Virus record (IMG/VR): IMGVR_UViG_3300024352_000044
Span: 1 to 41,483 of that record
Length of the DNA stretch: 41,483 nt
Strand: one strand, 5' to 3'
Origin: a virus
Part shown: positions 4,955 to 32,313 of the stretch, piece by piece
Position numbering within the stretch: the stretch's first letter is position 1
Layout: the number at the start of each line of letters is the position of its first letter
Made by a program: the position numbers and the translations under genes
Notes under the pieces: generated by a model
The model's database searches: none
What the model was told of the DNA's origin: nothing
What the model saw: the letters and a program-made list of their open reading frames with translations, nothing else

Positions 4955-5536
4955 TTAGGCTAGATTAAATGCTATGCTGACTCGCTGTTTATCTGTGCGG
5001 TTAACTCCTACCTTGTGTGTTAACCAACTAGGAAACATGATCAAAGTTCCTGTTTTTGGCTGTATATGATGGCTCTGACGTTGTGGCAGTAGATCTGCGG
5101 GCCATAGTCTAAGATGATCTACAGGGTTAGGGCTTTTAAAGGTTAAATTACCCTCATCACCATCTGCTTGATAATAGTAGCAGCCCGAAATAGCTCGTTC
5201 CGGATGTACATGATCGTACATGAAGTTTTTGGGCTCGTAGATATTGACCCAGCTGTCTGTGAGCCTAAAGGGTCTAACTGGATATTTGATAAAATTACAC
5301 CAATCACGTAGACTTTCAAATATAGAGTCAGTTAGGTGGTTCATGCCCAGGTCCACAATATCGTTGGAGCCGTCAAATTTAAAGCTGGAACTAACTTCGT
5401 CGTCCCAGGGATTATCCTTGACTTCCAACTGGTCTAATGCTTGTTTGATCTGTGCCTGTACTCGATCTAGTTCTTCGCCCTCTAGTTCACGTACATAAAC
5501 AGGAGCATAAAATAAGTGTAGTTTTTGTGATTTCAT
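4955..5536 (-). CDS. 2OG-Fe(II) oxygenase-like protein
   Basis: The 193-residue protein shows MYDHVHPERAISGCYYY (His109, His111) as the first iron-ligand region, GTLIMFPSWLTHKV with the distal His174, and Arg185 in KQRVSIAFNL for 2-oxoglutarate binding. It belongs to the same general group as the gene at 1213. The ATG at 5536 overlaps the stop of the next oxygenase gene (ATGA), so two oxygenases are translationally coupled. An upstream in-frame extension would run 26 codons into the neighbour and is rejected. Confidence 0.85.
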   Translation of the reverse strand: MKSQKLHLFYAPVYVRELEGEELDRVQAQIKQALDQLEVKDNPWDDEVSSSFKFDGSNDIVDLGMNHLTDSIFESLRDWCNFIKYPVRPFRLTDSWVNIYEPKNFMYDHVHPERAISGCYYYQADGDEGNLTFKSPNPVDHLRLWPADLLPQRQSHHIQPKTGTLIMFPSWLTHKVGVNRTDKQRVSIAFNLA

Positions 5537-6144
5537 TTGAATACCAAGTAAGTTGAAAGAATGTATTTGGTTTGTCCGTCTTGGGGCATAAGCCCTGCAT
5601 GAGGAAAATGCCAAGTGGGTGTGAATATACAGAGCCGACCTCGACGAGCAGCCACGGTCATGTTTTCCAAAGGAAACTCTGTGCCAGCGTCCGAATCGTT
5701 GAGATAAAACAAACAGGCCAAAAATCTAGATGAAGTTTCTAGGGTAGTATTATCAGCGTGTAGTTTAAACTCATGACGACCATTGGGTCTATAGCATTTG
5801 ATTCTAAAACCCTCTAGGGCAAAGTCATAGGGCAAGATGTTTAGAGTGTCCCAATCACGCTTATAGTCACTGACCAAGGGTATGACCCTAGCTGAGAGTT
5901 GATCGCAGGTCTCAGTCCAATCATAGGCCCAGTGGCTGCTTTTCTTATAAAGATCCCAGGGATTACGAGCCTGAGGGTGGCGTGTAGAGTGTAGATCTAA
6001 TTCAATTAATTTGGCCCACTCGCCCGGACGTTCCTTATGGAATCGAGCGCAGAGTTCAAAGGCCTTGACCATTTCATCGCAGAATTCTGGGTCAAGGGCA
6101 GCGTCAATGACCCGTATGTAGTTTTTGTCGTAGACTATTTCCAT
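5533..6144 (-). CDS. 2OG-Fe(II) oxygenase, prolyl-4-hydroxylase-like
   Basis: The 203-residue protein has the classic HxD motif (FKLHADN, His129 and Asp131), a following strand RFLACLFYLND, and the distal His182 in WHFPHAG. Lys193 in QTKYILSTY takes the place where prolyl-4-hydroxylase-type enzymes often have a Lys for 2-oxoglutarate. This looks like a more canonical oxygenase than its coupled neighbour. A TAAATA element lies four bases upstream of its ATG. Confidence 0.85.
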   Translation of the reverse strand: MEIVYDKNYIRVIDAALDPEFCDEMVKAFELCARFHKERPGEWAKLIELDLHSTRHPQARNPWDLYKKSSHWAYDWTETCDQLSARVIPLVSDYKRDWDTLNILPYDFALEGFRIKCYRPNGRHEFKLHADNTTLETSSRFLACLFYLNDSDAGTEFPLENMTVAARRGRLCIFTPTWHFPHAGLMPQDGQTKYILSTYLVFK

Positions 6145-7756: not shown

Positions 7757-7796
7757 ATACTTGTATAACAACAAACAACTACGCAGGAGCGTGTAT

Positions 7797-8000
7797 ATGC
7801 GTAATCCAGAAGAAATTTCTAAATGGGTAAGAACAGAACTGGCTAGAGTAAATCCCTATACAGATAAACTTAGAGCACATCTTTGGGCAGTGGGTTTTCT
7901 AAGTTCAATTATAGCTAGTCTAATATGGGCAGACTCTAAGAACTTGACGAGTTTTAGACTGGCTGTGGCTGCTAAACTCAAAGAACAAGATAGACTATGA
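7797..8000 (+). CDS. Hypothetical protein, 67 aa
   Basis: The ATG at 7797 follows a GGAGCG-type ribosome site. Residues 38-54 (LWAVGFLSSIIASLIWA) could span or lie on a membrane; both flanks are charged. A weak TATAAC at 7764-7769 could be a -10 but has no good -35. The gene ends at the edge of the large repeat-rich non-coding stretch. Confidence 0.65.
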   Translation: MRNPEEISKWVRTELARVNPYTDKLRAHLWAVGFLSSIIASLIWADSKNLTSFRLAVAAKLKEQDRL

Positions 8001-9712: not shown

Positions 9713-9741
9713 TTGACATTTTGGCGCAGAGATCGTACAAT
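9713..9741 (+). promoter_or_regulatory. Sigma70 consensus promoter
   Basis: TTGACA (9713-9718), 17 bases, TACAAT (9736-9741). Drives the GIY-YIG-like gene and probably the one after it. Confidence 0.85.
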
Positions 9742-9765
9742 ATACATATGTTGAAGGAGCGGCGA

Positions 9766-10086
9766 ATGCGAGCAAAGAGATCAGATCGTAATCACATCAT
9801 CTATGAACTACGTGTTAACGGTGAGAACTACATTGGTGTCACAGCCAAGACTGAATCAACTATTAATAAGAGTGTTCGCGCTCGTGCTGCCAAGCACTTC
9901 TATCGTGCCAAAACAGAAACTAAGAATTGGCTGCTTTGCTCAGCTCTACGCAAGCTCAACAGCAAAGAAGAAATTGAAATCATTGTTCACGAGATTGTTC
10001 GTGGCAAAGCCCTGGCCCATAAGCGCGAAGTAGAAATCCGCAGACTGGTAGGCCCTACACTAAACACAGACACACGAGGAGACTAA
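9766..10086 (+). CDS. GIY-YIG-like nuclease-domain protein
   Basis: The 106-residue protein has IIYELRVNGENYIGVT near its N-terminus, matching the GIY...YIG strands, then conserved-looking Arg and His residues (SVRARAAKHFYRA), KNWLLCSALR, and a glutamate with a closing PTLNTDTRG, the LN-type end of the domain. GIY-YIG proteins cut DNA and include phage homing endonucleases and repair nucleases. No DNA-binding tail is visible, so it may be a free-standing small nuclease or an inactive relative. ATG at 9766 follows AAGGAGCG. Confidence 0.7.
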   Translation: MRAKRSDRNHIIYELRVNGENYIGVTAKTESTINKSVRARAAKHFYRAKTETKNWLLCSALRKLNSKEEIEIIVHEIVRGKALAHKREVEIRRLVGPTLNTDTRGD

Positions 10087-10345: not shown

Positions 10346-10374
10346 TTGACAACTAGGAATTTTGGCAGTATAAT
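10346..10374 (+). promoter_or_regulatory. Sigma70 consensus promoter
   Basis: TTGACA (10346-10351), 17 bases, TATAAT (10369-10374), with TTTGG just upstream of the -10. Drives 10403 and 10576. Confidence 0.9.
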
Positions 10375-10402
10375 ACAGGCTTACAACGTTAAGGAGCGAC
10401 CT

Positions 10403-10579
10403 ATGACTAACCCAATCCCTTCTAGCAACATTTGGCACACACCCGCAGATCTCAACGAGCTGCAGGATATGATCAATCAGTTCACAGGCCAGGAAGCTGC
10501 GCTGGCTGCACACGTGATGATGTTGACCCTGAACACCTGCCACAAATTAGTCGATGAAGCTATCAAGGAGGCCGCATGA
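10403..10579 (+). CDS. Hypothetical protein, 58 aa
   Basis: ATG at 10403 follows AAGGAGCGACC, which is fully complementary over nine bases (GGAGCGACC) to GGTCGCTCC in the 3' UTR RNA at 13757. The product is helical (ADLNELQDMINQFTGQEAAL) and not recognised. The stop overlaps the next ATG. Confidence 0.65.
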   Translation: MTNPIPSSNIWHTPADLNELQDMINQFTGQEAALAAHVMMLTLNTCHKLVDEAIKEAA

Positions 10580-10941
10580 GGTACTGGGACGAACTGCTGC
10601 GCGAGCAGCGTAATGGTCTAACCGTGATCGTGGACAAGACCTGGGAAGACTGCTCTATTCGCGATCTCTTTGATGAAAGCTGCTGTGATGTAGAGGACCT
10701 GGAACGTAAGGTTAACAGGGGCGATTTGGATTGGTTTATGCTCAGAGCTCGCGTCATGTACAATGATCTGGAACTGGGCTCAGAGATCTGTGGAGGGTTC
10801 CTCTACGAAGATGCTCGCGATGTGCTGCGTGATGGTATGGCTGACGAGATGATCTGGCAAGCAGAGGAAGAAGCCAAACGACAATTACCCGGCCTTATTG
10901 AAGGGTTATTGCGTGTAGAGGTTGACAAATTGGCTGCGTGA
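10576..10941 (+). CDS. Hypothetical protein, 121 aa
   Basis: Translationally coupled to the previous gene (ATGA overlap). It is acidic, with two Cys in SCCDVEDLERK and the segment LELGSEICGGFLYED, which I have seen in hypothetical proteins of T4-like marine phages. No enzyme motif is visible. Its last codons contain the next promoter's -35. Confidence 0.7.
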   Translation: MRYWDELLREQRNGLTVIVDKTWEDCSIRDLFDESCCDVEDLERKVNRGDLDWFMLRARVMYNDLELGSEICGGFLYEDARDVLRDGMADEMIWQAEEEAKRQLPGLIEGLLRVEVDKLAA

Positions 10942-10950: not shown

Positions 10951-10977
10951 AGAGACTTAGCAACAAAGGAGCGCGAT

Positions 10978-11316
10978 ATGCAGACACTTTTTAGCACAGC
11001 AGGCGACGGCTTGTGGAGCAACGTAGCAAAGCCTGTACACATTGTAGACATGCAACTTGCCTACATTAACGACGAGAGAGATTTTGGCGAGCTGCGTGTT
11101 TACTTTAACACTAAGTTTTGGGACGTTAACAAAGACGGTCTCATTTACACAGACAGCAACTTTATTGAAGAACTGCGCAATTTTTTAATTGCACAAGAAC
11201 TAACTGACGACTGCGACTACAGCGAGCAAGGCATGCAGGGAGACAACTACGTTAGCTTAGACGTGGGAGAGGGCTTTATTGCTGCGTGGGATGCAAAGTT
11301 TAACTTGTTTGCATAA
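10978..11316 (+). CDS. Conserved hypothetical phage protein, 112 aa
   Basis: Starts after AAGGAGCG. The product is acidic with the blocks VHIVDMQLAYINDERDFGEL, DGLIYTD and YSEQGMQG; these look like a conserved small protein found in many T4-like marine phages. No catalytic motif or membrane segment is visible. Confidence 0.75.
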   Translation: MQTLFSTAGDGLWSNVAKPVHIVDMQLAYINDERDFGELRVYFNTKFWDVNKDGLIYTDSNFIEELRNFLIAQELTDDCDYSEQGMQGDNYVSLDVGEGFIAAWDAKFNLFA

Positions 11317-11321
11317 GCACA

Positions 11322-11349
11322 AAACGGGGGTTGACAACAGCCCCCGTTT
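11322..11349 (+). promoter_or_regulatory. Hairpin with promoter -35 in its loop
   Basis: A perfect 9-bp inverted repeat AAACGGGGG/CCCCCGTTT encloses TTGACAACAG, so the -35 box is the loop. No T run follows. It could act as a transcript-end hairpin for the upstream gene or influence promoter opening. Confidence 0.55.
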
Positions 11350-11359: not shown

Positions 11360-11388
11360 AGACACACATTAACACAAAGGAGCGTGAA

Positions 11389-11811
11389 ATGGCTACTCGA
11401 AGCACTATTGCAATGGAGCAACCCGACGGTCGCGTAATGCAGATCTACTGCCACTGGGACGGTTACCTTGATCACAACGGAGAGATCCTTCAGGAGCACT
11501 ATCGTGATCGCGCTAAGGTTTTGGCACTCATGTATCTGGGCGATATCAGCTCCTTAGCTCCTAGCATCGGAGAACCGCACGATTGGGACAACTGCCCTGA
11601 GGGTGTCTGCAACGCCTACGGACGCGATCGTGGCGAATCGGGCTGTGAAGCTCGTGTGTTCAAGGACTTTGAGGACTACAAGGCCAACCACCAGTACGAA
11701 GAATACGAGTATATCTTCCGTTCGGACGATCAGTGGTATGTTTCCGAATACAGCCGAGCCTACCGCGCACTTGAGCAGGTGCTGGCAGAAGCAGAAACCC
11801 TAGAGGATTAA
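11389..11811 (+). CDS. Conserved hypothetical protein (MATRSTIA-type)
   Basis: The 140-residue product begins MATRSTIAMEQPDG and continues YCHWDGYLDHNGEIL, a recognisable N-terminal signature of a conserved small family of unknown function in phages and bacteria. The rest is acidic and aromatic. It has its own promoter and GGAGCG site. A short inverted repeat, AACCCT/AGGGTT (11796-11816), spans the stop codon and recurs at the end of the gene at 20586. Confidence 0.75.
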   Translation: MATRSTIAMEQPDGRVMQIYCHWDGYLDHNGEILQEHYRDRAKVLALMYLGDISSLAPSIGEPHDWDNCPEGVCNAYGRDRGESGCEARVFKDFEDYKANHQYEEYEYIFRSDDQWYVSEYSRAYRALEQVLAEAETLED

Positions 11812-11830: not shown

Positions 11831-11859
11831 TTGACAACAGCCTCATTTGGTAATATAAT
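11831..11859 (+). promoter_or_regulatory. Sigma70 consensus promoter
   Basis: TTGACA (11831-11836), 17 bases, TATAAT (11854-11859), with TTTGG in the spacer. The flanks AATGGGG/CCTCATT can pair around the -35, as at 11322. Confidence 0.9.
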
Positions 11860-11892
11860 AGAGGTATGTTCAACAAATGCATAGGAGCGAAA

Positions 11893-12966
11893 ATGCCAGC
11901 AGTAATTGAGATTCGTGAGGGTTCGTATAAGATCCGTGGCTCAGATGTGAGCATGGCCGGTAACCGTTTCGAACTAGTAGAGCAATACAAAGAAGGTGCT
12001 CAGGGTGGTTATGTAACCGTAGAAGGTGGCTCTGTACAGCCTGCTAACCCTGGCATTCCAGATCGTAAGATCCGTATTCGTTGCAGTTCAGCACAAAGTT
12101 ACATGATTGTCGCCGGTGAAGTGCCAGCAATGCCCGCAGGTGATAAAAGTTTGGAGCAGATTAAAATTTCAGATAATGCCGTAGCACACGAAACGGACGA
12201 GCAGATCATCGAACGTCTTCGTAACCGTTTTGACGTGCTCAAAGATATGACCAAAGCAGTCAAAGAAGGTACCGTGCGAGCTATGATCGTCACAGGCCCT
12301 CCAGGCGTGGGCAAGAGCTTTGGTGTAGAAGAAGTACTAAGCAAGGACGATCTCTTTGATATGATGGGTCAGCGCAAGCCCAAATATGAGATTGTCAAAG
12401 GCGCAATGTCAGCAGTGGGTCTGTACAGCAAGCTCTATCACTACAGCGAAAAAGGCAATGTTATCGTGTTTGATGACTGCGACTCTGTGCTGTTGGATGA
12501 CCTTAGCCTTAATATTTTGAAGGCTGCTCTGGACTCTAGCAAGAAGCGTACTATCTCTTGGAACACTGACAGCCGTGTTCTGCGTTCAGAAGGAGTGCCA
12601 GATCGCTTTGAATTTAAAGCAGGCGCTATCTTTATCACTAACATCAAGTTTGAGAATGTGCGTTCTAAGAAACTGCAGGATCACCTTGCCGCTCTTGAAA
12701 GCCGTTGCCACTACATTGATCTTCAAATGGACACAGATCGCGAAAAGGTCTTGCGCATTAAGCAGATCACCCAAGATGGCATGTTGGACAGCTACGAGTT
12801 TGAAGACTGCGTTAAGGATGAGATCATTGATTACATTCTTGAAAAACGAGCACAAATGCGTGAGCTGAGCCTGCGTACGGTACTCAAGGTAGCAGACCTG
12901 CGCAAGAGCTTTCCTACAAATTGGAAGAGCATGGCAGAAGTTACCGTTATGAAGCGAGGTGCCTAA
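11893..12966 (+). CDS. AAA+ ATPase
   Basis: The 357-residue protein has Walker A GPPGVGKS (135-142), Walker B VIVFDDCD (190-197) and a sensor-1-like FITN later, placing it in the AAA+ class. About 120 residues precede the ATPase core and may bind substrate or partner. A role as a helicase, loader or remodelling chaperone is possible, and no homing or protease motif is present. ATG at 11893 follows AGGAGCGAAA; an upstream ATG at 11866 would add nine residues and leave the ribosome site inside the gene. The stop overlaps the next gene's ATG. Confidence 0.85.
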   Translation: MPAVIEIREGSYKIRGSDVSMAGNRFELVEQYKEGAQGGYVTVEGGSVQPANPGIPDRKIRIRCSSAQSYMIVAGEVPAMPAGDKSLEQIKISDNAVAHETDEQIIERLRNRFDVLKDMTKAVKEGTVRAMIVTGPPGVGKSFGVEEVLSKDDLFDMMGQRKPKYEIVKGAMSAVGLYSKLYHYSEKGNVIVFDDCDSVLLDDLSLNILKAALDSSKKRTISWNTDSRVLRSEGVPDRFEFKAGAIFITNIKFENVRSKKLQDHLAALESRCHYIDLQMDTDREKVLRIKQITQDGMLDSYEFEDCVKDEIIDYILEKRAQMRELSLRTVLKVADLRKSFPTNWKSMAEVTVMKRGA

Positions 12967-13478: not shown

Positions 13479-13754
13479 ATGAAACGTATCTCTAAAGACT
13501 CAAAGACTTTTAAGATTTTTACTGCACTACAAAATGGTGACAAACTAACTGCAAGCCAAGCTGAGAAGCGTTTTGGCGTAAAGAACCTGGCTGCTGAAGC
13601 AAGCCGTCTCCGCCAAGCTGGTTATGCTGTTTATGCTAACTCTCGCAAGGCAGGTAATGGTGTTACCGTTACTGAGTATGAACTAGGCCGTCCTTCACGC
13701 GAGATCGTTGCTCTAGGCTACTTAGCTCGTAACATGGGCATGACATTGGCTTAA
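13479..13754 (+). CDS. Small helix-turn-helix-like DNA-binding protein
   Basis: The 91-residue basic protein has LTASQAEKRFGVKNLAAEAS followed by LRQAGYAVYANSR, a winged-helix/HTH arrangement (about residues 22-57), and a C-terminal helix with LGYLARNMGM. Similar small proteins with this fold and ending are frequent in T4-like marine phages. It may be a transcription regulator or nucleoid-like protein. AAAGGAAAA lies upstream. Directly after the stop is an RNA element with two CGCTCC motifs. Confidence 0.7.
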   Translation: MKRISKDSKTFKIFTALQNGDKLTASQAEKRFGVKNLAAEASRLRQAGYAVYANSRKAGNGVTVTEYELGRPSREIVALGYLARNMGMTLA

Positions 13755-13756
13755 TA

Positions 13757-13830
13757 GGTCGCTCCACAAAACCAAGCCGATTCGCTCCCGGGGCGGTTTT
13801 GGAATAGGGTCCTAAGGGCCCTATTTTTTT
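13757..13830 (+). ncRNA. 3' UTR RNA element A with anti-ribosome-site loop and terminator
   Basis: Starts two bases after a stop codon. GGTCGCTCC (13757-13765) is followed by a hairpin with stem CAAAACC/GGTTTTG plus GCC/GGC and an apical core CCGATTCGCTCCCGG (13777-13791). A terminator follows: stem ATAGGGTCC/GGGCCCTAT, loop TAA, and a run of T (13804-13830). Both CGCTCC motifs are complementary to the GGAGCG ribosome site of early genes. The same core recurs at 19715 on a different stem. It may be a regulatory small RNA; it has not been shown to be made. Confidence 0.6.
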
Positions 13831-13876: not shown

Positions 13877-13905
13877 TTGACAGAACTGCTGTTTGATGGT
13901 ATAAT
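13877..13905 (+). promoter_or_regulatory. Sigma70 consensus promoter
   Basis: TTGACA (13877-13882), 17 bases, TATAAT (13900-13905). Drives the gene at 13929. Confidence 0.9.
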
Positions 13906-13928
13906 AGAGTTATTGTTAAGGAGCGATG

Positions 13929-14573
13929 ATGAGCACATTTACAGCAGATCAAGTTTGGGGCCTAGCTGTTAGGGCTGATACACAGAATGGCGGCTACTGC
14001 AAAGAGCCTGTATTCGCTGCTACCGCTACACACGGGATCGATTACAATAACGTGATCAAACAAGCCAACAAGGTTCTGGTCAAGAACTGGCTCAGAGAGA
14101 ATGCTCAGCCTACAGCAGAAGAGATCACTCTTGGCCAAGAGTATCGTAACTATTTCAAAACATTCACCCTCAAAGCACTCACTGGCAAGATCAATGACTT
14201 TGAGACCACAGCTATGAAGATTGCAGCCAAAGACGAGTTCACTGGCCGTGATATGTTGGACTTTGCTGTTGTCAGCTGTTTACCCAGCGTAGCTCGTCGT
14301 GATAAGGCCCAAACAGAGCTCAAGCGAGAGATCTATCAAAGCGAGCAACTCTCCGGCGCTGTAGGTGATGAGATCGTAGGGGAGATCGAAGTGATCCGCA
14401 CACGATTCAACCCTGAATACAACAAGTATCGCATCACTGCTCGTATGGGTGAGAGCTTTATTGATTTTTGGTACAAGGATGATGTCAAAGGCACTATCCG
14501 TATCAAGGGCAAGATCAAGAATGTTCGTGGCGATAAAACAACACAGCTCAACTATGTTAAAAAAGTTGGTTGA
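13929..14573 (+). CDS. Hypothetical protein, 214 aa
   Basis: Soluble protein with a helical N-terminal part and a C-terminal strand-rich part (NPEYNKYRITARMGESFIDF, KGTIRIKGKIKNV). The latter could be an OB-like nucleic-acid-binding fold, but this is only a suggestion. The ATG at 13929 gives a five-base spacing from GGAG; the ATG at 13926 is too close. The stop TGA lies inside the next TTGACA. Confidence 0.7.
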   Translation: MSTFTADQVWGLAVRADTQNGGYCKEPVFAATATHGIDYNNVIKQANKVLVKNWLRENAQPTAEEITLGQEYRNYFKTFTLKALTGKINDFETTAMKIAAKDEFTGRDMLDFAVVSCLPSVARRDKAQTELKREIYQSEQLSGAVGDEIVGEIEVIRTRFNPEYNKYRITARMGESFIDFWYKDDVKGTIRIKGKIKNVRGDKTTQLNYVKKVG

Positions 14574-15868: not shown

Positions 15869-15893
15869 ATACACATACTAAGGAGAGCGACTA

Positions 15894-17102
15894 ATGTCTA
15901 CAAACATCGTTGATAAATTAACTACTGCACGGGTCGGTCTATTGCTCAAAGCACCGTTCTTTGGCAACATGGCAACTCGTATGCGTTTAGTCTGTGCTGA
16001 CGACTGGTGCCCTACTGCGGCGACCAATGGCCGTGACTTTTATTACAACACAAAGTTCATCGAAAAACTTTCAGAGAAAAAACTAGAGTTCCTGTTTGGT
16101 CACGAGATCCTTCACTGCGTGTTTGATCACTTTGGCCGTGTAGGTAGCCGTGATCGTCAACTTTCTAACATCGCACAGGACTTTGCTGTAAACCAAATCC
16201 TTGTAGACGAGCGTATTGGTGAGAAGATCACTGAGGTTAAGATCTGTTATGATCCTAAGTTCCGTGGACTTGCTTGGGAAGAAATCTACGATATTCTGTA
16301 TGAAAAAGCAGAGAAGATTCCTATGGATCAACTGATGAAAGAGTTGGGCGATCTGTTGGACGAGCACATTAAGGAACAAGAGGGTGCTGGCTCAGAAGAT
16401 GACAAGACCAAAGACGGTAAGAGCAAGCCTAGCCTTAGCAAAGAAGAAGCAGAACGCATCAAGCAAGAGATCAAAGAAGCAATGATCCAAAGTGCCGCGG
16501 CCGCTGGTGCAGGCAAGACTCCTGCAGGCATTATGCGTATGATTAAGTCTATGACTGAGCCTAAGATGGACTGGCGTCAGTTGGTGCAACAAGAGATCCA
16601 AAGCATTGTTCGCAACGACTACTCCTTCCAGCGTGTTAATCGCAAGAGTATGCACTCAGGCGCAATCTTGCCAGGCATGAAAGAAGCAACTACCATTGAC
16701 GTGGCTATTGCTGTTGACATGAGTGGTAGTATTGGTGAAGAAGATGCCAGCACATTCCTTTCGGAGATCAAAGGCATCATGGACCAATACGAGGACTTCA
16801 AGATCAACCTGTGGTGCTTTGACACAGAGATCTATAACCCACAAGAGATCACTCATGACAACTCACATGACTTGCTTGAGTATGAACCTCAAGGTGGCGG
16901 TGGCACAGACTTTGATGTCAACTTTACCTACATGGAAGAGAATGACATTCGCCCTAAGAAGTTCATTATGTTCACAGACGGCTATCCCTGTGGTAGTTGG
17001 GGTCCTGAGGACTACTGCGACACAATCTTTATCGTTAAGGGCAATACACAAGCAGAGGCGCCCTTTGGTCAAACGGTGATCTACGAAAAAGAGGCGGGCT
17101 AG
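15894..17102 (+). CDS. Metallopeptidase-like and VWA-domain protein (MoxR partner)
   Basis: The 402-residue protein has an N-terminal putative metallopeptidase domain with HEILH (70-74) and a further His79, as in DUF2201-type proteins. Residues 160-215 form a charged linker (EDDKTKDGKSKPS). The C-terminal VWA-like domain has the metal-ion-adhesion start DMSGS (275-279), a later GGGGTDF threonine motif and FTDGYP. The pairing with a MoxR ATPase is as in RavA-ViaA or CbbQ-CbbO systems. Whether it is a protease or only binds zinc is open. Its own promoter and an AAGGAGAGCG site precede it. Confidence 0.88.
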   Translation: MSTNIVDKLTTARVGLLLKAPFFGNMATRMRLVCADDWCPTAATNGRDFYYNTKFIEKLSEKKLEFLFGHEILHCVFDHFGRVGSRDRQLSNIAQDFAVNQILVDERIGEKITEVKICYDPKFRGLAWEEIYDILYEKAEKIPMDQLMKELGDLLDEHIKEQEGAGSEDDKTKDGKSKPSLSKEEAERIKQEIKEAMIQSAAAAGAGKTPAGIMRMIKSMTEPKMDWRQLVQQEIQSIVRNDYSFQRVNRKSMHSGAILPGMKEATTIDVAIAVDMSGSIGEEDASTFLSEIKGIMDQYEDFKINLWCFDTEIYNPQEITHDNSHDLLEYEPQGGGGTDFDVNFTYMEENDIRPKKFIMFTDGYPCGSWGPEDYCDTIFIVKGNTQAEAPFGQTVIYEKEAG

Positions 17103-17980: not shown

Positions 17981-18184
17981 GTGAATCAAAATGAATTTGA
18001 ATACCTGAAGCGAGCCGTTGATGCATTGGGATCGTCAGAGACAACTCCGATGGCCCGTGTCAAGATCTTAAGGACGATGGAGCAGATCGCCGGACGCTGT
18101 GCCGTGGTGATCGAGAGGGAGTTCCAAGACCGCGTAGATCAGAACTTGGCCAATGCACATTTGGTTGACCTTTTGAGAAAATGA
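17981..18184 (+). CDS. Hypothetical protein, 67 aa (GTG start)
   Basis: GTG start with AAAGGAGCC six bases upstream. The product is helical (LKRAVDALGSS, RTMEQIAGRCAVVIERE) without a recognised family. Its 3' end contains the -35 of the next promoter. Confidence 0.6.
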   Translation: MNQNEFEYLKRAVDALGSSETTPMARVKILRTMEQIAGRCAVVIEREFQDRVDQNLANAHLVDLLRK

Positions 18185-18193: not shown

Positions 18194-18218
18194 TTTAACA
18201 CTAACTTAAGGAGCGAAT

Positions 18219-18845
18219 ATGCCTAATTGGTGCAACAACAACTTGACGCTGGAGCATGATGATCCAGCAATGATTACCCGTGCTAAAGAAGCACTTGATC
18301 GTGGAGAGTTCCTGCAGGAGTTTATTCCTGTGCCCAAAGAACTCACAGAGACCATGGCAGGATCCTACGGGGATGATGCCAAACAAAAGGATCTGGAAGC
18401 ACAGATGAAAGCCAATGTGGCCAAATATGGCTACAGCAACTGGTATGACTTCTGCGTGGGTGAATGGGGAACCAAATGGGATGTAGGCGGTGATGGACAA
18501 AGCGACATCCACCCAGACGGTAAGAGTCTATTCACTTCTTTTGATTCAGCATGGTCACCACCCGTGAATGCTTATCAGAAGTTGGAACAACTTGGCTTCC
18601 GTGTGAACGCAATGTTCTACGAATCCGGTATGGCATTTGCTGGTATTTACGAAGATGGCAACTGCGAGGACTTTAGCCTAGAAGGCATGAGTGCCGATGA
18701 GATCGAGCAGAACTATCCAGAGTTGGACGAAGCATTCTGCATCGCCGAGGCTATCCGTGAATTCCAGGAAGAGGACGAAGAGCTCACAGAGTGGATCAAG
18801 GATGGTGTTGAGCAGAACAAGAAACTAGGACTTGTTTCAGAATGA
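18219..18845 (+). CDS. DUF1281/Api92-like protein
   Basis: The 208-residue protein starts MPNWCNNNLTLEHDD, the hallmark N-terminus of the Api92-like ferredoxin-fold family found in phages and plasmids (also YubB-type). Later blocks NWYDFCVGEWGTKWDV and FDSAWSPPVNAYQKL fit the same family. Function is unknown. The ribosome site AAGGAGCGAAT is complementary over nine bases to the conserved loop ATTCGCTCC of the two 3' UTR RNAs. The acidic C-terminus overlaps the next start. Confidence 0.85.
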   Translation: MPNWCNNNLTLEHDDPAMITRAKEALDRGEFLQEFIPVPKELTETMAGSYGDDAKQKDLEAQMKANVAKYGYSNWYDFCVGEWGTKWDVGGDGQSDIHPDGKSLFTSFDSAWSPPVNAYQKLEQLGFRVNAMFYESGMAFAGIYEDGNCEDFSLEGMSADEIEQNYPELDEAFCIAEAIREFQEEDEELTEWIKDGVEQNKKLGLVSE

Positions 18846-19409: not shown

Positions 19410-19712
19410 ATGGCTACAGATAAGAAATTTGCGGTTGCTGGTGTTTCGACACTGGAAGGTAAGACCAAGCTTCGTTTCGCTAACGATGTTATGCGCATCA
19501 AGATCTTGGCAAAGAACGGTCACAAGGATGTTGAGCTCGTTGAGCTGCCATCAGAGATGACCAAGGCTGAGGCTGTACAACACCTCAAGAGCGTTGGTTT
19601 CGGCTCAGGCAATGCTGCTGTACAAGCTGCGATCGCCTACGCTGAGAAGAAGAATCCAGCCCCTAAAGCTGTTAAGACTACTGCCGCGAAGGCAGAGGCT
19701 GTTACCGCTTAA
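19410..19712 (+). CDS. Conserved small phage protein, 100 aa
   Basis: Product reads KFAVAGVSTLEGKTKLRFAN, then ILAKNGHKDVELVELP and MTKAEAVQHLKS, a pattern I recall from a widespread small protein of T4-like marine phages of unknown role. The C-terminus is an Ala/Lys tail (KAVKTTAAKAEAVTA), suitable for binding nucleic acid. GGAG is nine bases from ATG. The stop codon lies in the stem region of RNA element B. Confidence 0.75.
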   Translation: MATDKKFAVAGVSTLEGKTKLRFANDVMRIKILAKNGHKDVELVELPSEMTKAEAVQHLKSVGFGSGNAAVQAAIAYAEKKNPAPKAVKTTAAKAEAVTA

Positions 19713-19781
19713 ATCCGATTCGCTCCCGGTAGCGGTAACCTTGGGCCCTAGTATGCACACGTATACTAGGGCGTTTTTTTT
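19701..19781 (+). ncRNA. 3' UTR RNA element B with anti-ribosome-site loop and terminator
   Basis: Stem GTTACCGCT (19701-19709) pairs with AGCGGTAAC (19731-19739); the apex holds CCGATTCGCTCCCGG (19715-19729), identical to element A although the stem differs. A terminator with 10-bp stem GCCCTAGTAT/ATACTAGGGC and eight T ends at 19781. The 5' arm covers the last codons of the upstream gene. The apical ATTCGCTCC is complementary to GGAGCGAAT ribosome sites. Confidence 0.6.
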
Positions 19782-21156: not shown

Positions 21157-21185
21157 TTGACAACAGCCTCTAGATCGCATATAAT
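21157..21185 (+). promoter_or_regulatory. Sigma70 consensus promoter
   Basis: TTGACA (21157-21162), 17 bases, TATAAT (21180-21185); the TTGACAACAGCC start is shared with 11331 and 11831. Confidence 0.92.
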
Positions 21186-21216
21186 ACAAGCTCAACAAAC
21201 AACTTAGGAGCGAAAC

Positions 21217-21570
21217 ATGGAAGCACAAGCACGTGAGTATTTTGTCCGTCGTCTTAACGAAGTAGCACAAGAAAAAGTGCAGGCCAAAGCAGTAGAACTT
21301 TACGGCGCAAGTGGCCGTCCAGAACAGCCTACTTGGGGCATGGTGTTTGAGGGCATTAAATCCGGCGAGATTACCCTTAAAGCAGACAAGGTGGACTATA
21401 CGGGTCCTTACCTCAACCCTACGGACGTGGAGTGGCCTGCTATGGAAGCCAAAAAGGCAGAGCTGGAAGCATATCGCAAGTTGGTAGCCGCTGAGAAGCA
21501 ACGGGCTATGGACGCTGTCTATTTGGACGAGAGCGCACAAGAAGCCCTTAAGGCTTTTGAAGCAATTTAA
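21217..21570 (+). CDS. Hypothetical protein, 117 aa
   Basis: Alpha-helical, Ala/Glu/Lys-rich protein, with AGGAGCGAAAC before ATG. An N-terminal helix (REYFVRRLNEVAQEKVQAKA) and a C-terminal coil (EAKKAELEAYRKLVAAEKQR) flank a short strand segment. It has its own promoter and terminator and so is a single-gene cassette. Confidence 0.7.
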   Translation: MEAQAREYFVRRLNEVAQEKVQAKAVELYGASGRPEQPTWGMVFEGIKSGEITLKADKVDYTGPYLNPTDVEWPAMEAKKAELEAYRKLVAAEKQRAMDAVYLDESAQEALKAFEAI

Positions 21571-22349: not shown

Positions 22350-22378
22350 TTGACCTTTGGGCCTTTTGGTGCTATACT
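22350..22378 (+). promoter_or_regulatory. Sigma70-type promoter
   Basis: TTGACC (22350-22355), 17 bases, TATACT (22373-22378), with CTTTTGGTGC before the -10, directly after a T-rich tract. Confidence 0.8.
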
Positions 22379-22401
22379 ATAGGTATAGTAAGGAGCGTGA
22401 A

Positions 22402-22650
22402 ATGATAACAGAAAAACAACGTGTTGTAAATGCCCTAAAGGGTTGGCAGTTCATCCGTGGAACCCATGGTTGCTTGTATGATCGTGGCTCAGCAGATTCC
22501 TACTACGGCCGTCCACGTCAACCTCACTACGGTGGAGTGGGAGGCGATTCCGGCCGCCGAGTCTCGGTCAACGATGCTGCATCCGTGGCCGAATACTTGG
22601 CAGGCTACGACTACAACGAGCGTTATGGAGACAAAAAGAACTATGATTAA
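22402..22650 (+). CDS. Conserved hypothetical protein, 82 aa
   Basis: ATG follows AAGGAGCGTGAA. The product has a conserved-looking core: FIRGTHGCLYDRGSADSYYG, a PHYGG turn, and YLAGYDYNERYGDKKNYD at the end. I associate this Gly/Tyr/Asp-rich pattern with a small family of proteobacteria and their phages. Function unknown. It overlaps the next gene by eight bases. Confidence 0.7.
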   Translation: MITEKQRVVNALKGWQFIRGTHGCLYDRGSADSYYGRPRQPHYGGVGGDSGRRVSVNDAASVAEYLAGYDYNERYGDKKNYD

Positions 22651-24320: not shown

Positions 24321-24514
24321 TAGAATACGCTGTACTCACACGGGATCCTGATTTTTTGAAGTTTGCGGAATTTATACAAGCACACAATCTCAGCCACGAA
24401 ATACATCTTAATCGTACTCGTGTACACCTAGTTGAAAACTCTAGTCTACACCTAGAGTTTTTATTGAGATTTCCCAGTGCTTTTCCCATAACCACTTTCA
24501 CGGAGTCGCTATGA
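24317..24514 (+). CDS. Hypothetical protein, 65 aa
   Basis: Both ends overlap neighbours by four bases. Mixed strand-helix protein (AVLTRDPDFLKFAEFIQ, VHLVENSSLHLEFL). Upstream partner of an oxygenase gene in the same operon. Confidence 0.55.
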   Translation: MIEYAVLTRDPDFLKFAEFIQAHNLSHEIHLNRTRVHLVENSSLHLEFLLRFPSAFPITTFTESL

Positions 24515-25065
24515 CTGAACCTAGAATAATACCTAATTTATTAGGCCCCAGCACATTTGAATATGCACAATCACGTTTTACGGATCTAGGCATACACTGG
24601 TACTACATGCCCGTGACCAGCTGTGAAAAAGATCAAATGCAGTATGCAGGCAGCTTTAGTCATTTGATCTATAAAAATGGAGAACCCATTAGTCCCTTAT
24701 GGGATCTTAGTCTACAGATACTCTTAGCTGCCTGTGATCATCACGGTGAACGACTAGCAGAAATTGCTCGTGTTAGACTGGGCTTTTGTACTCGTACACC
24801 CTATGCTGTGGAGCATACACCGCATCAAGATTTTCAAGGACCGCATCGTACGGGCATATATTACCCTATTACCGCTGACGGCCCTACTACTATCTACGCA
24901 GAGAAAACAGAACAACTTGATGGTGCGTATACTCTGTTGGCTAGTCAACAGCCTAGGGCTAACCTTTGGATGGACTTTGACGGCGAACATTTTCACAGCA
25001 GCACTACTCCCGTAGATCACGAAAATCGCTTGGTTTTGACCCTAAACTACAGAATACAAGAATAA
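24511..25065 (+). CDS. 2OG-Fe(II) oxygenase-like protein
   Basis: The 184-residue protein has HQDFQGPHRTGIYYPI with HxD ligands His105 and Asp107, distal His162 in GEHFHSST, and Arg173 in HENRLVLTLNY for 2-oxoglutarate. Substrate unknown. It closes an overlapping four-gene run. Confidence 0.82.
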   Translation: MTEPRIIPNLLGPSTFEYAQSRFTDLGIHWYYMPVTSCEKDQMQYAGSFSHLIYKNGEPISPLWDLSLQILLAACDHHGERLAEIARVRLGFCTRTPYAVEHTPHQDFQGPHRTGIYYPITADGPTTIYAEKTEQLDGAYTLLASQQPRANLWMDFDGEHFHSSTTPVDHENRLVLTLNYRIQE

Positions 25066-27019: not shown

Positions 27020-27700
27020 ATGTTTGATTCAATTACAACTTATCGTTCAGCTGAAGCTATCAATAGTGCCATGGCCAGTGTTTATAAACACATGGGTCTA
27101 GCAGTATTGACCAGTATGATCGTTTCATTGTTTGTAGGAACCAATCCTGCACTATTGGCCTTTTTCTTTACAGGCTTTATAAAATGGATTGTTATATTTG
27201 CACCGCTGGTAGCTATTATTGCTCTTAGTATGAATATGGATTCTATGAGCAAGGGCACAGCACAACTAGCTCTACATGGCTTTGCCGCGCTAATGGGCTT
27301 GAGCTTTGCTACTATCTTTGCTGTCTACACTATGGGCAGTATTTTTTCAGCTTTTATGAGTGCCGCAGTATTGTTTGGCGTTATGAGCTTTTATGGTTAT
27401 TTTACCAAGAAGAGTTTAGATAGCCTAGGCCAGTTTATGTTCATAGGCCTAATTGCCATTATCATTGCTAGTCTAATCAATATCTTTATTGGCAGCACCT
27501 TAATGCAAATGGTTATTTCGGCTATTGCTGTTATTATCTTTCTAGGCCTTACTGCCTACGACACACAAAAGATTCGAGAAATGGTCAGCTATGATACAGC
27601 GGAAGGCAATGCTGAAATTGTTGGCGCACTAACTCTGTATCTTGATTTTATTAATCTTTTCCTAAATCTTCTACAACTATTTGGCGGTAGAAAAGATTGA
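27020..27700 (+). CDS. Bax inhibitor-1 (YccA/YbhL) family membrane protein
   Basis: The 226-residue protein has about seven membrane helices and the family landmarks GLTAYDTQKIREM and ALTLYLDFINLFLNLLQLFG at the C-terminus; length is normal. Bacterial homologues include YccA, a substrate and modulator of FtsH, and YbhL. A phage copy in the inner membrane might protect phage or host proteins from FtsH or adjust the envelope. It has its own promoter and AAGGAGA site. Its last bases overlap the following oxygenase gene's TTG start. Confidence 0.9.
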   Translation: MFDSITTYRSAEAINSAMASVYKHMGLAVLTSMIVSLFVGTNPALLAFFFTGFIKWIVIFAPLVAIIALSMNMDSMSKGTAQLALHGFAALMGLSFATIFAVYTMGSIFSAFMSAAVLFGVMSFYGYFTKKSLDSLGQFMFIGLIAIIIASLINIFIGSTLMQMVISAIAVIIFLGLTAYDTQKIREMVSYDTAEGNAEIVGALTLYLDFINLFLNLLQLFGGRKD

Positions 27701-28260
27701 ACGAATATGTTTTATTCCCTACAATAGTTAGGGAATACGATTTCAGCAAGGACCCAGATTTTCATGTCCTTGCTGATTTTGTTTCTAAACAAAAAACAGA
27801 ACCACATAGACTAGTAGGCTGGGCAGAAAGCAGTTACGGTGTAGGCCGTAGTCTTTTTGATAATTTTATTCTCAAAGGCATACGACAAAAACTACAGGCC
27901 GCTGTTGATGCATATATCATTGAACTTGGTATAGCACCAGTTAAAATAACCAATAGTTGGTTTAATAAACTAGGTCAACATCAACGTGTAGAAACTCATA
28001 GACATGAATTAAGTGTTGTGTCAGGAGCATTCTATGTTCATGCAGATCCCGGTAGTGTGGGACTAAAATTATTCAGTCCTTTGGCACAACTTCGTATGTA
28101 CGAACAGATTGTAAATCACAATGCTGTTAATGCTAATTTTATTGAAATGGAATGTTGTACAGGTCAGCTAATTTTATTTCCTAGCTGGATAGAACACGGA
28201 ACCGATAATAATCAAACCGATAGTAGAATTACGGTTAGTTTTAATACAGAATATTGTTAG
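27697..28260 (+). CDS. 2OG-Fe(II) oxygenase-like protein (TTG start)
   Basis: Oxygenase pattern: VETHRHELSVVSGAFYVH (His101, His103), ILFPSWIEHGT with distal His167, and Arg177 in DSRITVSFN. It is coupled to the membrane protein gene through a TTGA overlap; TTG at 27697 is the only start that keeps the N-terminus (MNEYVLFPTIVREYDF, typical of this group). The 3' end overlaps the convergent gene by 20 bases. Confidence 0.82.
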   Translation: MNEYVLFPTIVREYDFSKDPDFHVLADFVSKQKTEPHRLVGWAESSYGVGRSLFDNFILKGIRQKLQAAVDAYIIELGIAPVKITNSWFNKLGQHQRVETHRHELSVVSGAFYVHADPGSVGLKLFSPLAQLRMYEQIVNHNAVNANFIEMECCTGQLILFPSWIEHGTDNNQTDSRITVSFNTEYC

Positions 28261-30243: not shown

Positions 30244-31675
30244 CTTCAGAGCTCATCGAATTTAAAATCTCACGCAATTTTGTAGATTCGACATTAGCTC
30301 TTACTTTACCCAAACTTGCACCTTGTGTAGGATCTGTAATAACTCCATCACTATCTACGTTCTTTGGTGCTTGTACGGTTGTTCTTGATTTGATAGATTC
30401 GATAATACTAGAACTTCCTCTACTTGCCCCTGCGTGTTCTTGTTCGTCTTCTGGTAGATCAGAAATCTTTAAACTTTCTAGATTAAATTCTAAATCTACC
30501 TTCATACCAACACCGCTAGAACTACGTGTTTTCATAAGTTGAATTTGATAGCGTCCACGTTCACGCATAGCACGTGATGTAAAAATACCAAACACATTAT
30601 CTGCGGTTTGAATTTTACTTAAACCACCTGAAATATGTGAATGATCAAATTCTACTTCTTCAACAGCGCCACGATTCAACTGACTCGCAGTTACAAGTAT
30701 ACAATTCTTTTCTACTGCTAGATTACGCAATTCTTCCGATACATATTTGTCTTTAATAAACAAATCTGCTGGACTAATTTTCTTACTCATAGGCATTAAT
30801 AAGTCTAGATAGTCAACTAACAATACATCAACTTTTCTGCCTGTTTTAATTTCAAATTCTTTTAGATATGCTCTCAGATCGTTTGCAGTTTTACCAGAAG
30901 GCATATATTTGATTTGCAATGCTCCAGATTTCTTTCCAATGATCTTAACTTTCATTTCAACATCGTCAAGATCTTTAAAAATTTCTTTTGTTGGAATTCC
31001 AGTTGTCATTGCATCAATACGCATAGCAACTAAATCTTCCGAAAGTTCTAATGTTAGGTACACGACGTTAAGTCCTTGCAAACACCAATTAACACCTAAG
31101 TTTGCCAAGAACAAAGATTTACCTGCACCCGAACCACCGGCAAAAATATTCAACTCTCCGCGGTTCATTCCACCAAACAATTTACGATCAAGACTTGGCC
31201 AACCTGTGCTAATTTGTCCGTTCTTATCTTTAATTTTTAATAAACGAGCTCTCGGGTCTGCAAAATAATCAGTGCCCATATCTTTAGTTAAAGATATTTG
31301 AACTGCTTCTTTAATCTTCGTTTCAACCTGACCGTAGTCTTTCTTTTCTAATAAATCTGCTGAGTCAATGATTGCACGTTCAAGCGCCTTGTGCCTAGTA
31401 AAAGACTCGAATTCATCCATTAGCCATTCGTTGTGACCTTCTTTTATATCTTCAGGTTTTTTAAGATCTATCCTGCAACTTGCATTAACCATTTCATAGT
31501 CAGGCAATACAGCATATTCTTTTGCATACACATTGATAAATTCTGCTGCATCTTGTAACTTTCGATCAAACAATGTGTGATCAAAGATACCTTGACAACG
31601 AACAAATACTTCTGCATCTGCAAGCATCAACTCGAGATATAATTTTTGTACTTCGTAATCGTATGTTTTTATCAT
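30230..31675 (-). CDS. gp41: gp41-like replicative DNA helicase (DnaB family)
   Basis: The 481-residue protein has Walker A GGSGAGKS (180-187), VVYLTLELSEDLVAMRID after it, VDVLLVDYLDLL as Walker B and ASQLNR and TSRAMRERGRYQIQLMKTRS later, the RecA-like motifs of DnaB/gp41 helicases. It unwinds the replication fork 5' to 3' as a hexamer and works with the primase encoded upstream at 34351. The start at 31675 overlaps the upstream oxygenase stop. The N-terminal 130 residues are the usual primase-contact region. Confidence 0.92.
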   Translation of the reverse strand: MIKTYDYEVQKLYLELMLADAEVFVRCQGIFDHTLFDRKLQDAAEFINVYAKEYAVLPDYEMVNASCRIDLKKPEDIKEGHNEWLMDEFESFTRHKALERAIIDSADLLEKKDYGQVETKIKEAVQISLTKDMGTDYFADPRARLLKIKDKNGQISTGWPSLDRKLFGGMNRGELNIFAGGSGAGKSLFLANLGVNWCLQGLNVVYLTLELSEDLVAMRIDAMTTGIPTKEIFKDLDDVEMKVKIIGKKSGALQIKYMPSGKTANDLRAYLKEFEIKTGRKVDVLLVDYLDLLMPMSKKISPADLFIKDKYVSEELRNLAVEKNCILVTASQLNRGAVEEVEFDHSHISGGLSKIQTADNVFGIFTSRAMRERGRYQIQLMKTRSSSGVGMKVDLEFNLESLKISDLPEDEQEHAGASRGSSSIIESIKSRTTVQAPKNVDSDGVITDPTQGASLGKVRANVESTKLREILNSMSSEDETY

Positions 31676-32277
31676 CTTATAATTTTATAATCTACAACAA
31701 TGCATCGTCTCGGTGTTGACTTTACCGGATATACACCATGTAAGACACTTCCTGTCATTAAAATACAACGCCCTTCTTTAGGCATTAATGTTTTATAAAT
31801 CGTTTCCTCACCACCTGCTATTACAGCAAAAATAGAACCCCACGCTGATTCTTTTGGCGGATCTTGCGGTTTATAATGATATAAATTATCAAGATAAATG
31901 ACCTGCGTAACACAATCGCTATCATGATTATGCATACTTTGCCATCCGTTTTCTTGATAGTCCATATACCACGCAATAGTTGGCTGAATATTTAAATTCA
32001 ACTCGTGATCAAATAATGTCTTTTTAGTCCATTCAAAAAGTTTTTCCTGAATGTTTTGCCAATTATTATGTGGTTTAAAATTGCCTGAAAATTGCCTATG
32101 ATAAAATGTTTCTGATAATTTATTATCGCACCAAAGTGGATACTGCCTGGCATTGACTGCTACGGTTTCTTTGCTATATTCTTTTGTTTCATCTAAATCT
32201 GTTGTTAATACAAATAGTTCTTTGTAATTGGGATAAAATGAATCAACAAGCCATTGTGTTCCACTAACATATTTCAT
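31672..32277 (-). CDS. 2OG-Fe(II) oxygenase-like protein
   Basis: The 201-residue protein has MHNHDSDCVTQVIYLD (His116, His118), the distal His180 in GSVLHGVYPV, and Arg190/191 in TPRRCIVVDYK. ATG at 32277 is chosen over a GTG at 32292 because it fits a leaderless -10 geometry and overlaps the previous gene normally. It is inserted between helicase and carbamoyltransferase. Confidence 0.82.
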   Translation of the reverse strand: MKYVSGTQWLVDSFYPNYKELFVLTTDLDETKEYSKETVAVNARQYPLWCDNKLSETFYHRQFSGNFKPHNNWQNIQEKLFEWTKKTLFDHELNLNIQPTIAWYMDYQENGWQSMHNHDSDCVTQVIYLDNLYHYKPQDPPKESAWGSIFAVIAGGEETIYKTLMPKEGRCILMTGSVLHGVYPVKSTPRRCIVVDYKIIR

Positions 32278-32283
32278 AACTTT

Positions 32284-32313
32284 ATTATACACGAACCTCT
32301 ATGTGTTTTACAA
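32284..32313 (-). promoter_or_regulatory. Weak sigma70-type promoter
   Basis: On the minus strand TTGTAA (32308-32313), 18 bases, TATAAT (32284-32289). The -10 is six bases before the ATG at 32277, the same spacing as three stronger leaderless sites. The -35 is poor. Confidence 0.4.

Follow-up and report, generated by a model that had tools for sequence, protein, structure and literature searches.

Freshwater phages of a large family appear, to judge from their sequences, to end some of their early messages in hairpins with a loop that is the exact complement of the ribosome-binding sites of many of their own early genes, and matched changes of loop and site between these phages point to an early-gene off switch coded in RNA. 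The reading preferred here is that an antisense RNA, derived from the 3'UTRs of early messages, base-pairs with the start regions of early genes and thereby switches their translation off, and it is given a probability of about three in four. Sequence comparison between phages supports the hairpin and the loop that it presents, early sites that are complementary to this loop, and the covariation of loop with site. In the absence of transcript, 3' end, protein or expression data it is an inference that the RNA is transcribed and processed, that it pairs with its targets in the cell and represses them, when it does so and where the transcripts end.

The window, i.e., the whole stretch of DNA that was analysed, is one IMG/VR virus record (G000) of 41,483 bases. 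Its early-type region occupies the + strand from about 7.8 to 22.9 kb, and many of the genes in this region have a TTGACA-17-TATAAT promoter of their own and a short leader. Two genes, here called carriers, are followed by the predicted hairpin and by an intrinsic terminator:

13479..13754, + strand: carrier gene 1 (P0001, 91 aa, winged HTH family HTH_39), with the Shine-Dalgarno sequence (SD) AAAGGAAAAC, which lacks GGAGCG
13757..13765, + strand: GGTCGCTCC directly 3' of the P0001 stop codon, a possible second pairing site and the exact complement of GGAGCGACC (10393-10401) ahead of the gene at 10403
13767..13801, + strand: hairpin 1, with outer stem 13767-13773/13795-13801 and internal loop AAG/GGC, from covariation and folding
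13777..13791, + strand: inner part of hairpin 1, with inner stem CCG/CGG at 13777-13779/13789-13791 and loop AUUCGCUCC at 13780-13788
13803..13830, + strand: intrinsic terminator directly 3' of hairpin 1, with its own hairpin at 13803-13825 and a T-tract to 13830
19410..19712, + strand: carrier gene 2 (100 aa, without a family match, end rich in Lys/Ala), with the SD TTTTTGGAGAAC, which lacks GGAGCG
19701..19739, + strand: hairpin 2, with stem GTTACCGCT/AGCGGTAAC (19701-19709/19731-19739), inner CCG/CGG and loop AUUCGCUCC at 19718-19726
19745..19780, + strand: intrinsic terminator 3' of hairpin 2

The preliminary description of this DNA had placed a complementary segment, a hairpin-apex motif and a strong terminator after a small HTH-like gene. 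All of these are found, the segment at 13757-13765, the motif at 13777-13791 and the terminator at 13803-13830, and the gene matches Pfam HTH_39 (PF14090) with an E value of 1.4e-7. The nine-base match that had been claimed with the site before the gene at 10403 is likewise exact, and T(C/T)GCTCC is found again at the position of GGTCGCTCC in some relatives and in type-3 phages (see below). The apex motif is the 15-mer CCGATTCGCTCCCGG, within the 3'UTR hairpin ahead of the terminator. A second exact copy, at 19715-19729, had been overlooked and brings the total in the window to two. The 9-bp outer stem of hairpin 2 includes the coding end and the stop codon of carrier gene 2.

Folding energy does not make the case for hairpin 1. 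The terminator hairpin (13803-13825) has a predicted energy of -13.5 kcal/mol and a z value of -3.0, hairpin 1 in isolation is no more stable than its shuffles (z = -0.93), and when all 111 nt of the region are folded, the structure of lowest energy favours another pairing of the first copy, without hairpin 1, and is ambiguous. The case follows instead from the covariation of the arms in related phages. The 15-mer CCGATTCGCTCCCGG occurs in at least 120 stretches of viral contigs, and most of the matches listed are hairpin tips just ahead of T-tracts, often as tandem pairs; some matches in coding sequence are due to chance, as expected for a 15-mer in so large a collection. The 11-nt sequence GATTCGCTCCC was counted 51 times in 31 related records, where its reversal, used as a control, is absent, from which follows that its presence is not accidental. 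Since the rows used for covariation had been chosen for an exact loop, conservation of the loop was scored on 58 distinct P0001 3'UTRs chosen by protein. The exact 11-mer is present in 40 of them and versions with one or two mismatches in none (0/58), while the remainder have either a type-3 loop (2/58) or a plain terminator (16/58).

The arms behave differently from the loop. When the flanks of 71 non-redundant copies are paired with each other, own flanks give a mean of -14.6 kcal/mol and swapped flanks -8.6, and the best of 10,000 permutations reaches only -10.6. In 23 homologous P0001 3'UTRs all seven outer-stem pairs (7/7) have two-sided changes, and the covariation is 0.379 vs 0.124 for shuffled alignments and breaks down if the two arms are set one column out of register. 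The fair tests of the stem are the flank-swap test and the count in fixed register; the table of in-register pairs is not one of them, as its rows were selected for at least six pairs, so that pairing in the first six columns is a result of the selection. Covariation of flanking complementary arms in related phages, proposed earlier as a check on the element, is accordingly found, around an invariant loop. The same loop is presented in several structural settings, with an AAG/GGC internal loop, a UAARY bulge or CAAC/GGYAA. That the motif is an ordinary terminator region with a CGCTCC that arose by chance would be compatible with the ambiguous fold of the whole UTR and with the fact that hairpins beside terminators are common, but this explanation can practically be dismissed in view of the 51 to 0 count against the reversed pattern and of an invariant loop between covarying arms.

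In other phages of the family two or three hairpins follow each other in tandem after an AAA-ATPase gene. No sigma70-type promoter was found within 200 nt upstream of 35 such tandem arrays. The simplest view is then that the RNA is the 3'-terminal part of an early mRNA; to act as a separate molecule it would have to be released by processing, or the 3' end would have to be abundant. A small hairpin, GCCnACAAGGC, recurs between the two loop hairpins of tandem arrays, e.g., in loci L005 and L111.

Consider now the sequence to which the loop is complementary. GGAGCG occurs 16 times in the window, compared with 8.7 +/- 2.7 times in shuffled sequences. Ten of the 16 lie in the early region, on the + strand, 3-5 nt ahead of an ATG that opens an ORF, and nine of these ten are just behind a sigma70-type promoter. 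The earlier estimate that GGAGCG serves as ribosome site for at least ten early genes is in keeping with these ten start sites, listed here with their predicted energies of pairing with the loop:

7786..7791, + strand: GGAGCG target site of the ORF at 7797, no adjoining sigma70 promoter seen, -10.6 kcal/mol
9756..9761, + strand: GGAGCG target site of the gene at 9766, promoter at 9713, -11.4 kcal/mol
10393..10401, + strand: GGAGCGACC target site of the gene at 10403, promoter at 10346, -12.3 kcal/mol
10968..10973, + strand: GGAGCG target site of the gene at 10978, promoter at 10922, -10.2 kcal/mol
11379..11384, + strand: GGAGCG target site of the gene at 11389, promoter at 11331, -10.4 kcal/mol
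11884..11891, + strand: GGAGCGAA target site of the AAA-ATPase gene at 11893, promoter at 11831, -13.3 kcal/mol
13920..13926, + strand: GGAGCGA target site of the gene at 13929 (or 13926), promoter at 13877, -12.4 kcal/mol, downstream of hairpin 1
18210..18217, + strand: GGAGCGAA target site of the gene at 18219, promoter at 18165, -14.3 kcal/mol
21207..21214, + strand: GGAGCGAA target site of the gene at 21217, promoter at 21157, -13.3 kcal/mol, downstream of both hairpins
22392..22397, + strand: GGAGCG target site of the gene at 22402, promoter at 22350, -10.4 kcal/mol, downstream of both hairpins

The mean over the ten sites is -11.9 kcal/mol, whereas the leaders of the two carriers give -2.3 and -5.0 and genes on the opposite strand -3.8. 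These sets of sites were picked by motif, and a comparison that takes all early leaders of the window is fairer. The loop then pairs with a mean of -9.2 kcal/mol vs -5.35 for shuffled loops, and 18 of 2000 shuffles are as good. The conserved single-stranded seed complementary to several unlinked mRNAs that is a criterion for a trans-acting, base-pairing small RNA is present, given the invariant loop, the ten targets in the window and the coupled change described below. In the leader CTAAGGAGAGCGACTAATG of the gene at 15894 (15869-15896 in the window) GAGCGA is shifted by two bases, to give GGAGAGCGA. This form is enriched in other type-1 leaders as well, and the shifted site of this gene is possibly weaker or tuned.

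Phages with the GATTCGCTCCC loop will be called type 1. Of their early leaders 415 out of 719 contain GGAGCG; about half do not, which counts against the explanation. At the motif-bearing loci the SD core AGGAG is followed by C in 68% and then by G in 60% of the SDs, and CGAA follows in 217 of 777. The tail of 16S rRNA (CACCUCCUUA) pairs with AGGAG and cannot read the CGAA after it, so something else must maintain these bases. The motif is also largely confined to early genes: in six genomes (G001, G009, G010, G022, G026 and G028) GGAGCG is present in 58 of 171 early leaders, with sigma70-type promoters, vs 4 of 223 late leaders, with T4-like TAAATA motifs (Fisher p = 1.5e-19). This test and tests at the level of genomes replace a first comparison of loci with and without the motif, which was too favourable in that several of the minus loci came from genomes with the motif elsewhere. 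All loci are kin to one another and the p-values overstate their independence, and the existence of three types, together with the switch in orthologous genes, is a stronger argument than any p-value.

The second type is represented by a single genome, G006 (357,559 bases), which has a relative of P0001 but neither GATTCGCTCCC nor an enrichment of GGAGCG. The SDs of its early leaders end in AGAGGGCA, and it has three hairpins with the loop TGCCCTC within about 85 bases at 19.80-19.89 kb, of which the last is a terminator. The array forms part of the 3'UTR of an AAA-ATPase gene with orthologues (67-73% identity) that precede tandem GATTCGCTCCC arrays in G009, G010, G022 and G028; these four orthologues have GGAGCG in their leaders, and the G006 gene has the leader AGAAAGGGCAAAGGGC. 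Orthologues of eight G006 genes with GGGCA leaders have GGAGCG in 138 of 181 type-1 leaders. A broad scan for further type-2 phages with TGCCCTC three times gave only coding noise apart from G006. Between 11.6 and 23.3 kb of G006 the leaders contain a second copy of the tag, CATAGGGCAAACA, farther upstream than the AGAGGGCA SD, and each mRNA may be able to bind two loops.

In the third type the loop is GGTAGTGT where relatives have ATTCGCTCC, and the leaders contain ACACTA. The pairing here comprises six bases, mostly just upstream of the SD and not on it. Members of one group (L159, L190 and L434-L475) have the GGTAGTGT loop at the same place and in addition T(C/T)GCTCC, unpaired, 3' of the stop codon, and two different antisense segments may act together in them.

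When 6-mers in the leaders are ranked without any information about the loops, GGAGCG/GAGCGA comes first in type 1, AGGGCA/GGGCAA in type 2 and ACACTA/CACTAA in type 3, and in each type the top 6-mer is the complement of that type's loop. Over 110 type-1 and 30 type-3 loci, the fraction with GGAGCG is 0.52 vs 0.09 (p = 3e-14) and the fraction with ACACTA 0.07 vs 0.46 (p = 4e-15). The difference is seen gene by gene in 24 orthologous early-gene families: of the 21 that are informative for GGAGCG, 20 have it more often in type 1, and of the 22 for ACACTA, 20 have that motif more often in type 3. The predicted pairing between loop and early starts is therefore strongly supported at the level of sequence comparison. 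Relatives that lose the loop and keep GGAGCG would, as had been pointed out beforehand, refute the proposal. No clear phage of this kind was found among the relatives; G018 and G020 have sites without a loop, but they are fragments in which the site cluster reaches the contig end.

Two claims of the preliminary description depend on this coupled change. The first was a phage-encoded anti-SD RNA that shuts down the phage's own early genes. That the RNA is aimed at these genes is upheld, in that loop and leader covary over three types and G006 has a complementary pair of its own; the shut-down is only inferred, without expression data. The second, that the RNA acts as a sponge and soaks up a GGAGCG-binding factor, is not sustained: the loop is the complement and not a copy of the site, and where the two sequences differ between phages they still match each other as complements. 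Much the same applies to the suggestion that the hairpin is a binding site or decoy for a protein and its match to the SD secondary. A loop that is strictly constant in varying structural settings is often found in protein sites, but a decoy for a factor that binds the SD would be expected to have the sequence GGAGCG and not its complement, and complementarity across three different loop sequences makes the suggestion very improbable. A role of the motif as DNA operator was rejected, as what is kept is complementarity and not identity, and the arms covary as RNA.

If the loop acts on messages with GGAGCG, the sites of the carriers themselves become of interest. In the two carrier families GGAGCG is present in 0 of 45 type-1 leaders, compared with the overall type-1 count given above, and ACACTA or GGAGCG in 0 of 38 type-3 leaders. 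In the phages with tandem arrays, the array follows an ATPase gene that is itself a target, and 24 out of 24 GGAGCG-bearing carriers are of this kind. From this follows that the exemption of carriers is not general, and the ATPase gene as target would make the system self-limiting in these phages.

It is conceivable that the loops act exclusively in cis, each hairpin pairing from the 3'UTR with an SD of its own long early mRNA, so as to limit the translation of this mRNA or alter its stability, as in icaR. Site and loop may indeed share an mRNA for those window genes that lie upstream of the hairpins; in G009, G010, G022 and G028 the site cluster is mainly upstream of the array, which in turn is in the 3'UTR of a target gene; and pairing between an SD and a C-rich 3'UTR motif is known for icaR (PMC3868564). 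But the window sites at 21207 and 22392 lie 3' of both hairpins and have their own promoters, so that the loops can reach messages from these promoters only in trans. Several GGGCA-type sites of G006, at 20.3-23.3 kb, are similarly downstream of the array at 19.8 kb, and the window carriers have no site of their own. An action confined to cis is for these reasons unlikely.

The preferred reading, an antisense off switch in the 3'UTRs, can be put as a sequence of proposed steps. Many early genes would be read from their own strong sigma70-type promoters, with a short leader that ends in the SD AGGAGCGAA. The transcripts of carriers 1 and 2 are predicted to end in a hairpin that shows the single-stranded loop AUUCGCUCC just ahead of the terminator. 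As early mRNAs build up, their accumulated 3' ends would expose the loop, which could then pair with 6-8 bases of the SD and adjoining bases on early mRNAs. A paired SD would exclude the 30S subunit, and early translation would be turned down. The action would be in trans and probably in cis as well, carriers of the window type, with other SDs, would escape, and early leaders with GGAGCGAA would have a matching UUCGCUCC loop in the same genome.

The nearest precedent is c4 of phages P1 and P7, an antisense RNA (PMC12197685). As here, a structured RNA encoded by the phage has loops complementary to a phage ribosome-binding region, with a specificity that differs between related phages (PMC12197685). 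Unlike the present case, c4 blocks translation of a single target, ant, and serves immunity, whereas the sites described here belong to many scattered early genes with their own promoters, and the window hairpins are in 3'UTRs of protein genes and match no Rfam family. The analogy suggests that the RNA of a resident phage might silence the early genes of a related superinfecting phage, with the loop types as immunity groups. It is true that phages differ in loop type and that each type fits its own leaders, and c4 gives P1 and P7 their heteroimmunity by pairing at the ribosome-binding site (PMC12197685). The self-matching pattern is, however, equally expected from self-regulation, no sign of lysogeny was found, in that the search used detected no relative of P0001 in a collection of bacterial and archaeal genomes. 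Immunity is improbable as the main role, and may be an added effect.

The nuclease RegB of T4 cleaves early start regions at GGAG, while RegA and the ribosome compete for about 30 mRNAs (PMC3014915). The proposed switch resembles this system as a post-transcriptional shut-off of early genes at the SD, but the agents of T4 are proteins and the agent here would be RNA. Neither RegA (PF01818) nor RegB (PF10715) was detected in 15 related records (0/15 each), with a positive T4 control. In the icaR mRNA of Staphylococcus aureus a UCCCC motif in the 3'UTR pairs with the SD in cis (PMC3868564), which resembles the present element in being C-rich, in a 3'UTR and complementary to an SD. It differs in concerning a single mRNA in cis, where in the phages a hairpin of constant loop is repeated and has many predicted targets, some of them accessible only in trans. 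Neither c4 nor icaR is regulon-wide with a swappable loop. Hairpins that present an anti-SD sequence are also found in the UCCC-motif RNAs of S. aureus and the alphaproteobacterial 'cuckoo' RNAs, where they match the general SD. Unlike these bacterial sRNAs with C-rich loops, the phage loop reads an extension of the SD that is specific for the phage type and changes together with it.

Searches of databases gave no known counterpart. Rfam at gathering level returned only tRNAs in the window and in seven loci, and a permissive Rfam search with two elements nothing credible. A DNA search of the region in phage records gave no match to it, the nearby matches being tRNAs only, and among the papers searched for the letters of the motif and for phage anti-SD RNAs there was nothing matching. 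The nearest isolates by protein are PA5oct-like Pseudomonas phages; in three stretches of PA5oct (137 kb of 287 kb) there were no comparable leaders, and no shared loop was apparent in the annotated ncRNAs.

How early genes are turned off post-transcriptionally in lytic phages other than T4 is largely open, and the present data offer an answer in terms of RNA, with unusually direct sequence evidence for the pairing in that, over three loop types, a change of the loop goes with a change of the early leaders. We lean, with some reserve, towards a more general view, in which a constant 3'UTR loop and an early-leader tag that coevolve as lock and key form a swappable RNA address code, i.e., a regulon-wide off switch that replaces RegA and RegB in large lytic phages and could also set the compatibility of co-infecting phages. 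The pairs of loop and leader are candidates for orthogonal translation switches, for instance the leader TTAAGGAGCGAATATG with a hairpin array.

Outside the early region, positions 27020-27700 of the window encode a predicted membrane protein that we take to resemble the Bax inhibitor-1/YccA family. The ORFs at 1186-1809, 4955-6144, 24511-25065, 27697-28260 and 31672-32292 resemble 2-oxoglutarate/Fe(II) oxygenases and may be related to them, and their number would be unusual for one 41-kb fragment.
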